Positions 40,495 to 46,172 of a stretch of 64,000 bases of DNA are shown one piece after another. The stretch comes from Candidatus Nanopelagicales bacterium. Lineage in GTDB: Bacteria; Actinomycetota; Actinomycetes; S36-B12. The stretch lies in contig WLWL01000002.1 in NCBI GenBank assembly GCA_012103605.1, positions 19,430 to 83,429 on the forward strand, in the 5' to 3' direction. Below the pieces are notes generated by a model. It was not told the origin of the DNA, did not search any database, and saw only the letters and a list, made by a program, of their open reading frames with translations. Every line of letters begins with the position of its first letter. Position 1 is the stretch's first letter. A program made the position numbers and the translations under genes.

Positions 40495-41664
40495 TTACTC
40501 CGATTCCGCTGGGTCTGACGCTGATTCCTGAGACGTGTCGAGGTCTTTCGGTGACGGCGGGGTGGGGAAGAGCGTGGCGGCGGCGTTGCGATTGGCGAGA
40601 ACGATCCACTGCTGTCCGGGCTTGAACGCCAAGACCTGCCCCTGACCGTCGGTAAAGGTGGTACCGGATTCGGCGTCCGGGCGCGACCACTTCGCCTGAT
40701 ACATGAGCCCGTCGCGCAGCACAAGGGCATCGCCCTTGCCGATGGTGATCGCGTGGGGAGTGTTGCCGCCGCCCTTGTCGAAGAAGCGTGAGGGTTCCTG
40801 CTTCACGTACTGGATCACGACCGTTGCTGCACGTTGACCGTCGGGGGTTTCCTCCGCTTCAGCGGTTCGGCCATTGAGTGACACGCGGTAGAGACGGCTG
40901 GCCTGGTCGTAGGTGAATTCAGCCGACGAGGCAGACCATTCGTAACGTGCTGACAAGCCGACCGATCCGTTCGGGGGAGGAGTGGAGCTGAAGCTCAGTC
41001 CGATGTCGCGGGCTTGCGATGCGTCCGGCGCAGCCGTGAGGCCCTCGGGACCGTCAAGGAAATAGTTGTACGGGGCCCGACGACTGAAGTCTCGTTGGTA
41101 GGCGAATGCAGCCTTGTTGGGCGAGATGTCGATCAACGATGAGTTAGCGATCACCGGCCACATCTTGCGCTGGGCGCCGGAGAAGCTGAAGGCGGGAGAT
41201 CCGTACTGAGCCAGAAGATCGATGTCGGTGATCCGGGCCGAACGCACCGGCCCGATCCGCTCGGGAACATCGGAGGAGAAAACGGCGGCGAGGCGGGTGA
41301 TGCCGTACTCGACTTCCTCGATATAGACGATGTCGGCCCGGTCCAGCCCCGCGTGCGGTTGAGCAAACCGGGTGTTGTCGAGTTTCACGACGAGAACGGG
41401 TGACGGTTCGCCCTGATCGGGCTGGGGCAGGCCGTTCAGTGGAAATGTCGGCGTGGGTGTCGGCGTGGGTGTCGGCGTGGGTGTCGGCGTGGGTGTCGGT
41501 GTCGGTGTCGGCGTCGGTGTCGGCGTCGGCGTGGCCTGGGGAGACGGGCGTGCGCTGGCTTCCGCCGATGGGGTGCCGGCGGCGTTGGGAGATGGGGTGG
41601 AGCAGCCGGCCACAGCACAGGCGGCGGCAATCGCCAGAGCCGCGAGGGCCCGAGGGGTGGTCAC
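40495..41664 (-). CDS. DUF3048 domain lipoprotein with (Thr-Pro)n linker
   Basis: GTG start 41664 (VTTPRALAALAIAAACAVAGCST, lipobox VAGC), GIGPVRSARITDIDLLAQ-type region, VLRDGLMYQAKWSRP. Confidence 0.85.
   Translation of the reverse strand: MTTPRALAALAIAAACAVAGCSTPSPNAAGTPSAEASARPSPQATPTPTPTPTPTPTPTPTPTPTPTPTPTPTFPLNGLPQPDQGEPSPVLVVKLDNTRFAQPHAGLDRADIVYIEEVEYGITRLAAVFSSDVPERIGPVRSARITDIDLLAQYGSPAFSFSGAQRKMWPVIANSSLIDISPNKAAFAYQRDFSRRAPYNYFLDGPEGLTAAPDASQARDIGLSFSSTPPPNGSVGLSARYEWSASSAEFTYDQASRLYRVSLNGRTAEAEETPDGQRAATVVIQYVKQEPSRFFDKGGGNTPHAITIGKGDALVLRDGLMYQAKWSRPDAESGTTFTDGQGQVLAFKPGQQWIVLANRNAAATLFPTPPSPKDLDTSQESASDPAESE
41446..41533. repeat. Hexameric/dodecameric microsatellite (GGCGTGGGTGTC type) encoding the Thr-Pro linker
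   Basis: Read directly; about 14-15 consecutive (GGCGT/GGGTGTC-type) hexamers. Confidence 0.95.
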
Positions 41665-41757
41665 GAGGGAACTGTAGGCAAGCGGTGGAGGCCCAGGGGG
41701 GTTCGGCTCGCGGGGGAGCCGCCGTGGAATCAAAGGGAAATTCTTGGTGAAAGGGGG

Positions 41758-41785
41758 TTGACGGTGGAGTAGAATGGAGTACATT
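41758..41785 (+). promoter_or_regulatory. Predicted mraZ/dcw promoter TTGACG-N16-TACATT
   Basis: TTGACG 41758-41763; TACATT 41780-41785. Confidence 0.55.
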
Positions 41786-41799
41786 GGAGGCACTTGGGG
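41765..41799 (+). promoter_or_regulatory. MraZ-binding repeats: four TGGRG motifs phased at 10 bp
   Basis: TGGAG at 41765, 41775, 41785 and TGGGG at 41795, upstream of mraZ. Confidence 0.85.
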
Positions 41800-41851: not shown

Positions 41852-42283
41852 ATGTTTCTGGGCACCCACGCTCCTCGATTGGACGACAAGGGCCGCCTCG
41901 TTCTCCCGGCGAAATTTCGTGAGCAATTGGCCGCCGGCCTAGTTCTGACCAAGGGTCAAGACCGATCGATCGTCGTGTGGCCGGCCGCGGAGTTCTCCGC
42001 CTACTCCGAGCGCCTGAATGAGGCGTCGCGGTCCGACGCTCGTGTCCGGGCCTACCTCAGGGTGCTTTTTTCTGGTGCCTCGGATGAAATTCCCGACCGT
42101 CAGGGGCGGATCACGATGCCGACGTCCCTTCGCGAGTACGCGGGTCTGGATCGCGACGTGATCGTGGTGGGCAACGGAACCACCGCCGAGATTTGGGATT
42201 CCTCGACCTGGGAGTCCTACCTGGGCAGCCAGGAGGACGACTTCTCCGGAATAGACGAGGAGGTGATTCCGGGCGTGATGTGA
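41852..42283 (+). CDS. mraZ: Transcriptional regulator MraZ
   Basis: MFLGTHAPRLDDKGRLVLPAKFRE; DRQGRITMPTSLREYAGLDRDVIVVG (AbrB-like tandem). Confidence 0.96.
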   Translation: MFLGTHAPRLDDKGRLVLPAKFREQLAAGLVLTKGQDRSIVVWPAAEFSAYSERLNEASRSDARVRAYLRVLFSGASDEIPDRQGRITMPTSLREYAGLDRDVIVVGNGTTAEIWDSSTWESYLGSQEDDFSGIDEEVIPGVM

Positions 42284-42460
42284 CACAGGCGGTGAGGCCT
42301 CCTCCCGCTGGGCACCCCCTGGCACCCCTTCCCCGGTGGCAGGAAGTGCAAAGCGGGCGGGGACCTGACCGACCTGGTCCCTTTCAACACCACACCGAGC
42401 AAGCAGAACCAACCAACATCCGAATCAACGTTCATCTCAACCGCGAACAAGGAGAAGGAC

Positions 42461-42598
42461 ATGGCAGCAATCGATGAAATTCCCGACGTAACATCGACGT
42501 TCCACCCCGTCCGCACGGGTGTGGCCGTCATGGTTGCCGGTGTCGCCACCGGAACAGTCCTCTATGTGGTTTCCGTAGTCGTGGCGGGTTGGGCCTAG
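42461..42598 (+). CDS. Small single-TM hypothetical protein (45 aa) between mraZ and rsmH
   Basis: Not in the ORF track; strong SD AAGGAGAAGGAC directly upstream; MAAIDEIPDVTSTFHPVRTGVAVMVAGVATGTVLYVVSVVVAGWA. Confidence 0.7.
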   Translation: MAAIDEIPDVTSTFHPVRTGVAVMVAGVATGTVLYVVSVVVAGWA

Positions 42599-42643
42599 AC
42601 CCCCGCTCGGGACACACGTCCCGGTCGATGGGGAAGTCGACTC

Positions 42644-43597
42644 GTGACATCACCACTCGTTCACCACACGCCCGTTGCAAGCGAGCGCGTCCTCGCTTTG
42701 CTGGCACCTGCCCTGACCGAGCCAGGTGCCGTCCTCGTTGATGCAACGGTTGGGCTCGGTGGTCACTTGCGGATGGCCCTCGATCGATTCCCCGCTATTC
42801 GCGTCATCGGCATCGATCGAGACCCCGAGGCTCTCGAGATCGCCGCAGAGCGACTATCCGCGAGTCGGGAGCGAGTGCACCTGGTGCATGCCGTGTTTGA
42901 CGAGATCCCGTCCATCCTTGCCGATCAGGGCATCGCGTGCGCTGATGGCGTGCTGTTCGACCTGGGGGTCTCCTCCATGCAATTGGACGAGGTGCGGCGG
43001 GGATTTTCGTACGCGCAGGATTCTGAGCTGGACATGCGGATGAACCCCGGGGACGCCCTGACGGCGGCGGATGTCGTGAACGACTACGCCGAAGAAGATC
43101 TTGTTCGCATCCTTCGGCAATTCGGCGAGGAGAAGTTCGCACCCCGCATCGCACGCGGAATCGTTCGCGCCCGGGAAGGCCACCGAGTGTCCCGATCGTC
43201 GGAGTTGGCGTCGATCGTCAAGGAGGCCATCCCCGCTGCAGCGAGGCGCCGAGGGGGAAATCCAGCCAAGCGCACCTTCCAGGCCTTGCGTATTGAGGTC
43301 AACGCAGAACTGACGGTGCTGCGCAGAGCCCTTCCCCGAGCGCTTGATGTCCTCAGCGTGGGCGGCCGCATCGTCGTGATGTCCTACCAGTCGCTCGAAG
43401 ACCGAATCGTCAAGTCAGAGTTCGTGGCGCGCACATCCATCGATGCTCCACCGGACCTTCCTGTTGTTCCTCAGGACATGCAGCCGTCCTTCAGGTTGGT
43501 CACGCGGGGGGCCGAAATGGCGTCGGACGCGGAAGTGGAAGCCAACTCGCGGGCAGCCTCGGTTCGATTGCGCGCCGTCGAACGGGTGGCGGCATGA
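42644..43597 (+). CDS. rsmH: 16S rRNA (cytosine(1402)-N(4))-methyltransferase
   Basis: HTPVASERVLALLAPAL, DATVGLGGHLRMAL, FDLGVSSMQLDEVRRGFSYAQDSELDMRM. Confidence 0.97.
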   Translation: MTSPLVHHTPVASERVLALLAPALTEPGAVLVDATVGLGGHLRMALDRFPAIRVIGIDRDPEALEIAAERLSASRERVHLVHAVFDEIPSILADQGIACADGVLFDLGVSSMQLDEVRRGFSYAQDSELDMRMNPGDALTAADVVNDYAEEDLVRILRQFGEEKFAPRIARGIVRAREGHRVSRSSELASIVKEAIPAAARRRGGNPAKRTFQALRIEVNAELTVLRRALPRALDVLSVGGRIVVMSYQSLEDRIVKSEFVARTSIDAPPDLPVVPQDMQPSFRLVTRGAEMASDAEVEANSRAASVRLRAVERVAA

Positions 43598-44352
43598 GCG
43601 TTACGTCGTCCGCTGCCGAATCGCCTCTGGCGGACCCATCCGCGCTTTCGCTGCCGTCGGAAAGCACCGAGTTCGCCACCCAGGGGGCCGGACGCCGACT
43701 GCGAAGCGATCGCCCCCACTTGCGATTGGTCGCTCCGCTGCGACCGGAACGGGCGAGTCGAGGGCTCTTCGCGGTAGTGGTCACCATCGGGTTGGCGTTG
43801 GGGCTCATCGTCATGTTGCTGATCAATACGTCCGTCGCGCAGACAGCTTTCGTCGTGAGTGAGTTGCAGTCGAAGCAACGTGAGCTCGCGCGGACCGAAG
43901 CTTCGTTGACTCAAGCGATCGCTGCTGTGGCGGCTCCGCCGGAACTTGAATCGAAGGCTCGTGCGTTGGGCATGGTTCCGGCCACGCGCCCGGTATTCCT
44001 CACCGTTCCTAGCGGCAAGGTTCGGGGAAAAGCCAAACCTGCTCCCGGTGATCGCAGTCGGACGTTAAATCTCGCAGGCTCCTTGACGGCGACGCTCATC
44101 GATCCTCTTCCCGTCAACGGGCGCGGAGAAAAATTGCCTCCCGCGCAGCGACGGCAGGTCGGGGATGGCGCGGTTCTTGTCGATGCTGCTGCTCAGCCCA
44201 CCGGCGACGCGGCGACGCAGCAGGCGCGTCGGAATGAAGAACGTCAGGCCTTGCGTCAAACGGCGACGACCGACGGGGCTGTTCTGGTGGGCCCTGACGC
44301 GCCGCGCGCGGGAGAAGTCGATGGCGCTGAGCTGGGACAGGCGGGGCAGTGA
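43594..44352 (+). CDS. FtsL-like septum-formation protein
   Basis: Single TM (GLFAVVVTIGLALGLIVMLLINTSVAQTAFVV) plus coiled coil, between rsmH and ftsI. Confidence 0.8.
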   Translation: MSVTSSAAESPLADPSALSLPSESTEFATQGAGRRLRSDRPHLRLVAPLRPERASRGLFAVVVTIGLALGLIVMLLINTSVAQTAFVVSELQSKQRELARTEASLTQAIAAVAAPPELESKARALGMVPATRPVFLTVPSGKVRGKAKPAPGDRSRTLNLAGSLTATLIDPLPVNGRGEKLPPAQRRQVGDGAVLVDAAAQPTGDAATQQARRNEERQALRQTATTDGAVLVGPDAPRAGEVDGAELGQAGQ

Positions 44353-46172
44353 TGGCTACCGGCTACCCAACGAAGCAGGCCCAGAGTCGACGACCACGCC
44401 GAGCGACGTCTGGTGGACGTGGCTCCGGGGGAGACCATCACACACCGGGTGATTTCCGTCGAGGGAACGCTCGGCGCCGAGGCACCGCGCTAGTCCTGGC
44501 CACGGCCGTCGTCGCTTCTGTTTTCGCAGCGCGTCTAGTGGACCTCCAGGCGGTACGAGGCGAGGCTCTTGCGGATGCCGCGCTCAGCCAGCGCCTGCGA
44601 ACTCTGGAGATTCCGGCCTATCGCGGCAGCATTCTGGATCGAACTGGCCAAGCGCTGGCGGTAACGGTCGAAGCCCGTGACGTCACCGCGGATCAAACCT
44701 TGATCGAGGATCCCGCTGCACTCGCGGTGGAACTTGCGCCGATCCTTGAAGTTCCACAAGACGTTCTCGCCGATCGACTTACCGGCGACAAACGCTTCAT
44801 GTACGTGGCGAAAGGAGTGGCACCCGAAACGTGGGACCGAATCAGCTCCCTTCGGCTGCCGGGCATCTTCAGTGAAGAAACCTCCCAGCGCACGTACCCG
44901 GCAGGCGACCTGGCCTCGCACATCGTGGGTTTCGTGCAAGGAGACGGATCGGGTGGCGGTGGAATCGAGTCGGCCTTCAACGACATCCTCACCGGTACCC
45001 CGGGACAGCAGACCTACGAGCGCGGTCCAGGCGGCCGGGTGATTCCGACCCAGAACCAATCGTCCACCGCGGCGGTCGCTGGATCGGACGTCCAGCTGAC
45101 CATCGATCGCGACGTTCAATTCGTCGCCCAAGAAGCCCTTCAGGGAGTGGTGCAACGATCGGGCGCATCGAGCGCGACCGCGGTCGTGATGGACATTCGC
45201 ACCGGCGAGATCCTCGCGATGGCAACGGCACCGGACTTCGACCCCAACCGTTTCACACAATCGACCCAAGATGATCGTCGGAACCGAGCCATCACCGATA
45301 TCTTCGAGCCAGGCTCGACGGGAAAGGTGATTACCGCAGCGGCGGTCATCAACGAGGGTGTCGTCGATCCGCTGACACCCATCAAGGTGCCGGGAAAATT
45401 GGAACGCGCTGGCAAGAAGTTCAATGACTACTGGGAGCACGGCACACTGCGATTAACGATGACCGGTGCGTTCGCCAAGTCCAGCAACATCGGCATGATC
45501 CTGGCCGCGGAGAAGATGCCCAAGCGACAGCTGGCCCGTTACATGGAGAAGTTCGGGATCACGCAGCGAACCGATCTAGGGCTCCCGGGTGAATCTGCAG
45601 GCCTGATGCTGCAACCAGAGAACTGGTACGGCACGACATTCCCGACAATGGCCTTTGGTCAGGGTTACTCGGTGACGGCCGTGCAGATGACAGATGTCTT
45701 CGCGACCATCGCGAACGGTGGCGTTCGGGTGAAGCCATCGATCATCGACGCCACGATTGACGCGGACGGAACTGTCGCGAAGACCCCTGATGCCGAACGC
45801 GATCGAGTCGTCCGTCAGGAAACCGCACGACAAGTAATGGCGATGATGGAAGCCGTCACCGCGGAAGGCGGCACCGCTCCGCAGGCACGAATTCCCGGTT
45901 ACCGCGTTGCCGGAAAGACTGGTACGGCCCAGTTTGTCGATCCCGATTGCCGGTGCTACGCAGGTGACGTCACGGCCTCATTCATCGGCGTGGCTCCAGC
46001 CGATGCTCCGCGTCTCGCTGTCGGAGTCTTCGTCCATCAACCCAAGCGCGGACGTGGCGGTGGTGAGTTGGCAGGTCCGGTGTTCAAGGAGATCACCACC
46101 TATGCTCTCCAGGCAATGCAGATTCCTCCGTCCGGCAAGCGAGCTCCACGGCTCTCGTTGACCACCGGATAG
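44349..46172 (+). CDS. ftsI: Division penicillin-binding protein (PBP3/PbpB)
   Basis: RGSILDRTGQALAVT, EPGSTGKVITAAAVI (STxK), SSNIGMI, KTGTAQF. Confidence 0.95.
   Translation: MMATGYPTKQAQSRRPRRATSGGRGSGGDHHTPGDFRRGNARRRGTALVLATAVVASVFAARLVDLQAVRGEALADAALSQRLRTLEIPAYRGSILDRTGQALAVTVEARDVTADQTLIEDPAALAVELAPILEVPQDVLADRLTGDKRFMYVAKGVAPETWDRISSLRLPGIFSEETSQRTYPAGDLASHIVGFVQGDGSGGGGIESAFNDILTGTPGQQTYERGPGGRVIPTQNQSSTAAVAGSDVQLTIDRDVQFVAQEALQGVVQRSGASSATAVVMDIRTGEILAMATAPDFDPNRFTQSTQDDRRNRAITDIFEPGSTGKVITAAAVINEGVVDPLTPIKVPGKLERAGKKFNDYWEHGTLRLTMTGAFAKSSNIGMILAAEKMPKRQLARYMEKFGITQRTDLGLPGESAGLMLQPENWYGTTFPTMAFGQGYSVTAVQMTDVFATIANGGVRVKPSIIDATIDADGTVAKTPDAERDRVVRQETARQVMAMMEAVTAEGGTAPQARIPGYRVAGKTGTAQFVDPDCRCYAGDVTASFIGVAPADAPRLAVGVFVHQPKRGRGGGELAGPVFKEITTYALQAMQIPPSGKRAPRLSLTTG

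Follow-up and report, generated by a model that had tools for sequence, protein, structure and literature searches.

A small predicted membrane protein gene between the mraW RNA and rsmH at the head of an actinobacterial dcw cluster

Organization of the locus

The window, a 64,000-nt stretch of a Candidatus Nanopelagicales genome, carries on its forward strand the head of a dcw operon, with mraZ upstream and rsmH, ftsL and an ftsI-type gene downstream of a small ORF (Table 1). The first-pass annotation had placed an unlisted ORF at this head position, and the ATG (42461), the stop codon (TAG, ending at 42598) and the strong Shine-Dalgarno (AAGGAGAAGGAC-ATG) are all as it gave them; the 45-residue product is MAAIDEIPDVTSTFHPVRTGVAVMVAGVATGTVLYVVSVVVAGWA. 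The ORF does lie between mraZ and rsmH as described, but the first element after mraZ is a 108-nt mraW RNA leader, which had been overlooked together with a conserved block at the rsmH start. Likewise, the stop is located upstream of rsmH, though not adjacent to it, at a distance of 45 nt from its start. The closest relative of the RsmH encoded in the window is 96% identical to it.

Four TGGRG direct repeats upstream of mraZ, in a layout that we take to resemble that of MraZ operators, probably represent a putative autoregulated operator; they also overlap promoter-like hexamers. The minus-strand ORF at 40495-41793, divergent from mraZ, is a probable lipoprotein gene and contains a long Pro-Thr repeat encoded by short tandem repeat DNA (41436-41530).

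The 5′ end of the leader RNA overlaps the mraZ stop. With a score over the gathering threshold and a location 5′ of rsmH/mraW (42644), it is a member of the mraW RNA motif (RF01746; Weinberg et al. 2010, PMC2864571), matches to which were found in 49 of 59 genomes of the window's family. On the minus strand it also gives 32.8 bits, a consequence of its long, nearly palindromic hairpin. Published passages on the motif describe it as a cis-regulatory RNA of mraW genes (PMC2864571) and report its transcription in C. glutamicum (PMC3890552) and C. diphtheriae (PMC5784534); these passages make no mention of a small ORF between the RNA and rsmH. A conserved membrane microprotein encoded next to it would mean that the immediate target of the mraW RNA is other than its namesake.

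Table 1. Features at the head of the dcw cluster (positions in the window)
Feature	Coordinates	Strand	Evidence
Four TGGRG direct repeats, 10-bp period, MraZ-box-like	41765..41799	+	single match in 64 kb; none in 100 shuffles
mraZ	41852..42283	+	Pfam PF02381, 2.2e-36; TIGR00242, 112 bits (cut-off 98)
mraW RNA (RF01746), structured cis-regulatory leader, 108 nt	42279..42386	+	cmscan 67.1 bits (gathering 50), E 8e-14
Small-ORF translation initiation region, GTTCATCTCRACCGCGAACAAGGAGAAGGACATGGCA-like block	42431..42466	+	genus alignment
45-aa single-pass membrane protein gene (predicted helix)	42461..42598	+	dN/dS, synteny, Arg-Thr-Trp frame, AlphaFold helix
Two adjacent predicted hairpins and rsmH GTG	42607..42646	+	alignment and fold, genus
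rsmH (mraW), GTG start	42644..43597	+	PF01795, 5.6e-105; TIGR00006
ftsL, 4-nt overlap with rsmH end	43594..44352	+	NF053549 FtsL_Actino, 79 bits (cut-off 55)
ftsI-type penicillin-binding protein	44349..46172	+	PF00905 and PF03717

Coding evidence

Across 10 genomes of the window's genus (order Nanopelagicales), the products of the small ORF are 73-100% identical, and summing over pairs gives pS = 0.478, pN = 0.094 and dN/dS = 0.132, as compared with 0.164 for rsmH and 0.054 for mraZ in the same genomes. In 9 of the 10 genomes, 157, 81 and 634 differences fall at first, second and third codon positions, respectively, and stops occur in both the +1 and the +2 frame. The low dN/dS, the excess of third-position changes and the stops in the other frames indicate selection at the protein level; the small ORF is a true protein-coding gene under purifying selection in its genus, and both its gene status and the selection on its amino acids are established computationally. 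Since the ORF is conserved by dN/dS as well as by synteny, the check for lack of conservation that the first-pass annotation had proposed against its own claim comes out in favor of the gene.

Selection is uneven along the protein and among lineages. In the genus, the segment R18-A45 has a dN/dS of 0.059 and the N-terminal half one of 0.267. Values in other genera of the window's family range from 0.15 to 0.42, and those in families f26 and f16 are about 0.3, with selection clear; in f7 and f28 they are near 0.63, from divergent members whose synonymous sites have strongly diverged, and selection is less clear.

The short length of the ORF, its absence from the list of open reading frames and the conserved non-coding blocks on both sides could suggest a chance ORF, or merely an RNA feature of the leader. 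To this reading, contradicted by the codon-position pattern, the dN/dS, the stops in the other frames and the shuffle test given below, we attach almost no credence, and a chance ORF is ruled out by the dN/dS, frame and shuffle tests.

Distribution across Actinobacteria

BLAST with the small protein returned matches in nearby genera only, and the junctions themselves were therefore read directly, anchored on the mraW RNA or on rsmH. An ORF was counted when it had an ATG or GTG start, a Shine-Dalgarno, a length of 38-90 aa and a best 19-residue hydropathy of at least 1.7. Such an ORF was found at 47 of 129 mraZ-rsmH junctions, whereas dinucleotide shuffling of these segments yields an expectation of 0.05; the count is a lower bound, as one locus (L052, genus g5 of family f1) was mis-segmented and several f28 genomes, in which the ORF stands behind a weaker Shine-Dalgarno, were missed by the filter.

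In 13 of the 14 sampled genera of the window's family, the junction holds a small ORF whose product has its transmembrane (TM) helix at the C-terminus. Within the order, families f2, f5 and f7 also have it, and elsewhere in the class, in other orders, it occurs in f12, f14, f16, f25, f26 and f28; loci with the titles Frankiales, Marmoricola or Propionibacteriales carry it as well. The f28 type of the protein (RRVRxQARxAxxVMAFS) is similar to that of the Marmoricola and Propionibacteriales loci, from which f28 appears to be Nocardioidaceae. No small ORF was seen in the junctions read from f3, f4, f6 and f9, nor in the loci examined from Kitasatospora/Streptomyces and Kribbella, and on an evolutionary scale the gene is thus dispensable. 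Genomes of f6, which appears to be Nanopelagicaceae, are small (mostly 1.0-2.1 Mb), and in its genus g19 rsmH begins almost directly after the mraW RNA.

Sequence family and predicted topology

The sequence of the small protein diverges fast, and what is retained in the window's family is a frame of Arg, Thr and Trp separated by 11 and 13 residues, respectively. Among 30 diverse family members, R18 and T30 are present in 90% or more, the alignment between them is ungapped, and the Trp 14 residues past Thr30 is found in most. Comparison of the profile of this family with that of the outer lineages by hhalign gave 87.5%. With a different selection it gave 56%, compared with 4.8% for TM segments of FtsL and no more than 0.1% for column-permuted controls. 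The small ORFs of the outer lineages are likely homologous to those of the window's family, a homology that falls short of proof because short hydrophobic profiles look alike.

Searches of Pfam, NCBIfam and the PDB with 47 representatives and the profile produced no consistent significant match, only scattered weak hits of single members. Identity with a known family was therefore dropped, in agreement with the first-pass annotation, which could not assign the protein. The hydrophobic stretch weakly resembles DUF3040 (PF11239; 12 bits, E = 0.27), but the match covers residues 18-43 only and falls well short of the gathering cut-off of 24.7 bits, for which reason membership was rejected; weak matches to DUF3040 occur in 4 of 30 family members, the best with E = 0.24. 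Actinobacterial FtsL (NF053549) is, like the small protein, single-pass and encoded in the dcw cluster; however, it is the product of a separate gene (43594-44352), whereas the small ORF encodes almost no periplasmic part, and the small ORF gave no match to FtsL_Actino at E up to 1. Being encoded by a coding gene of less than about 70 aa and having one predicted TM helix, the small protein constitutes a new family among single-pass membrane microproteins that corresponds to no catalogued family.

The single-pass character proposed at first holds on the evidence of one predicted helix, hydropathy and charge bias. AlphaFold, run on the single sequence, predicts one helix at residues 11-44 with a mean pLDDT of 88.6, and the tail past the helix comprises a few residues. 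Among 45 distinct proteins, Lys and Arg are more numerous over the 15 residues that precede the helix than past it in 41 and equally numerous in 4, the reverse being seen in none. From this excess an N-in/C-out orientation is expected, with a positive-inside bias. Such an orientation would leave about 16 residues in the cytoplasm and place the Arg at the cytoplasmic face, the Thr in mid-helix and the Trp at the outer face, with hardly any periplasmic tail. The acidic N-terminus noted at first is found in the window's genus but is absent as a feature of the wider set. The TM helix bears a small-xxx-small pattern (G27-V-A-T-G31 in the window), which is typical of helix packing.

Initiation sites and stop-start layout

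In most genera the stop of the small ORF either overlaps the rsmH start or stands no more than 8 nt away from it. The distance is -4 (ATGA or GTGA) in genus g14, in families f2 and f26 and in part of f28, -1 (TGATG) in genus g3, and +1 to +8 in most others. This proximity, established by computation, suggests that translation of the small ORF and of rsmH is probably coupled; the coupling is less direct in the window's genus, where 45-50 nt separate the two.

Within that genus, the GTTCATCTCRACCGCGAACAAGGAGAAGGACATGGCA-like block at the start of the small ORF is conserved while the remaining spacer is not, and it has one exact copy in the genome. The block at 42607-42646 is nearly invariant in the 10 genomes, though nearby synonymous sites have widely changed. 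It is predicted to fold into two hairpins with stems CGGGAC/GTCCCG and GGTCGA.../...TCGACT, the second of which holds the rsmH Shine-Dalgarno (GGGGAAG) in its loop; the structure is a prediction only, with no covariation in stems that are invariant among the 10 genomes. Among the junctions read, these hairpins are known from this genus only. The block is also single-copy, and a dispersed regulatory element was rejected because both start-site blocks occur once in the genome. A further candidate, in which the inter-ORF hairpin would mimic the 16S rRNA region methylated by RsmH, was discarded as well, since the resembling part is a loop that varies within the genus.

Beyond the genus, the motif GAAGGGTCGAG (or AGGGTCGA) precedes the start of the small ORF in three loci (L104, L121, L132), and in the Kribbella locus (L210), which has no small ORF, GAAGGGTCGAG stands directly before the rsmH ATG. 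The ORF, when present, thus takes the first initiation site after the RNA, and the motif may belong to a portion of the mraW leader outside the Rfam model. Loci L013-L018 (genera g2 and g4) have a conserved CGACCGCGAATCGTG...CACGA element upstream of the small ORF, which shares ACCGCGAA with the window's genus and adds a small TCGTG/CACGA hairpin before the Shine-Dalgarno.

Possible function and alternative explanations

The dcw cluster is among the best-studied bacterial operons, and its mraZ-rsmH junction is, to our knowledge, usually regarded as empty. Our literature search, of incomplete coverage, found no paper that describes an ORF there in Actinobacteria. With a conserved membrane microprotein at this junction, actinobacterial cell division would gain a component not studied so far. 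With slightly better than even confidence, we propose that the product is a small membrane accessory of the division or cell-wall machinery, which would act via its helix and be made in step with RsmH, FtsL and FtsI. The role in the divisome or envelope is suggested by the location, the probable co-translation with rsmH-ftsL-ftsI and the membrane character.

In the proposed mechanism, the dcw transcript, controlled by MraZ, would run through the mraW RNA leader, and ribosomes would initiate at the small ORF, which comes first after the RNA and has a strong Shine-Dalgarno. On reaching the rsmH start, or a point shortly upstream of it, they would terminate and then re-initiate, so that the output of small protein is coupled to that of RsmH, and the 4-nt overlap of rsmH and ftsL would extend the coupling to FtsL and FtsI. 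The small protein would insert into the membrane N-in/C-out, and its helix may contact a membrane partner in division or in lipid II/peptidoglycan synthesis (candidates are FtsL, FtsI, FtsW and MraY), of which it would be a lineage-specific accessory. A wider proposition, that these tail-anchored and fast-evolving microproteins are an ancestral, repeatedly lost part of the actinobacterial division or cell-wall synthase complex, translationally coupled to rsmH-ftsL-ftsI and encoded by the first gene after the mraW RNA, is offered as a tentative possibility.

The main rival to the membrane-accessory reading is a cis-acting leader peptide that controls translation of rsmH-ftsL-ftsI, by coupling or by MifM-like sensing of insertion, with little function left for the finished protein. 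The small ORF is indeed the first ORF after a structured leader RNA, its stop is tightly apposed to the rsmH start in most genera, and the Kribbella arrangement indicates that it uses the initiation site of the leader. There is also a precedent for a short leader ORF in a dcw cluster, as the one of Rhodobacter sphaeroides gave low but significant lacZ activity (PMC5089854), although it lies upstream of mraZ and in another phylum. The two conserved predicted hairpins around the rsmH Shine-Dalgarno would fit such control, but that block belongs to one genus among the junctions read and lacks covariation. Nascent-chain sensors conserve residues too; the amino-acid selection on the TM half (dN/dS of 0.059) and the Arg and Thr positions fixed across genera, however, exceed what simple coupling needs. 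On the strength of the helix selection and of these fixed positions we favor a function of the protein itself and consider a mere leader peptide rather unlikely. Still less probable in our view is that the helix serves to address the dcw mRNA, bringing the polysome to the membrane for FtsL and FtsI synthesis. A hydrophobic helix is kept in this fast-diverging protein and the ORF sits ahead of membrane-protein genes, as such addressing would have it, but addressing predicts kept hydrophobicity only, not kept positions of Arg, Thr and Trp, and FtsL and FtsI have TM helices of their own.

The accessory role that we prefer would have a counterpart in MgrB, whose target is the sensor kinase PhoQ, and we know of no sequence relation between MgrB and the small protein. 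Regulatory single-pass microproteins of the MgrB type (PMC10576120) are small, have one TM helix and probably act by contact within the membrane, as may be the case here.
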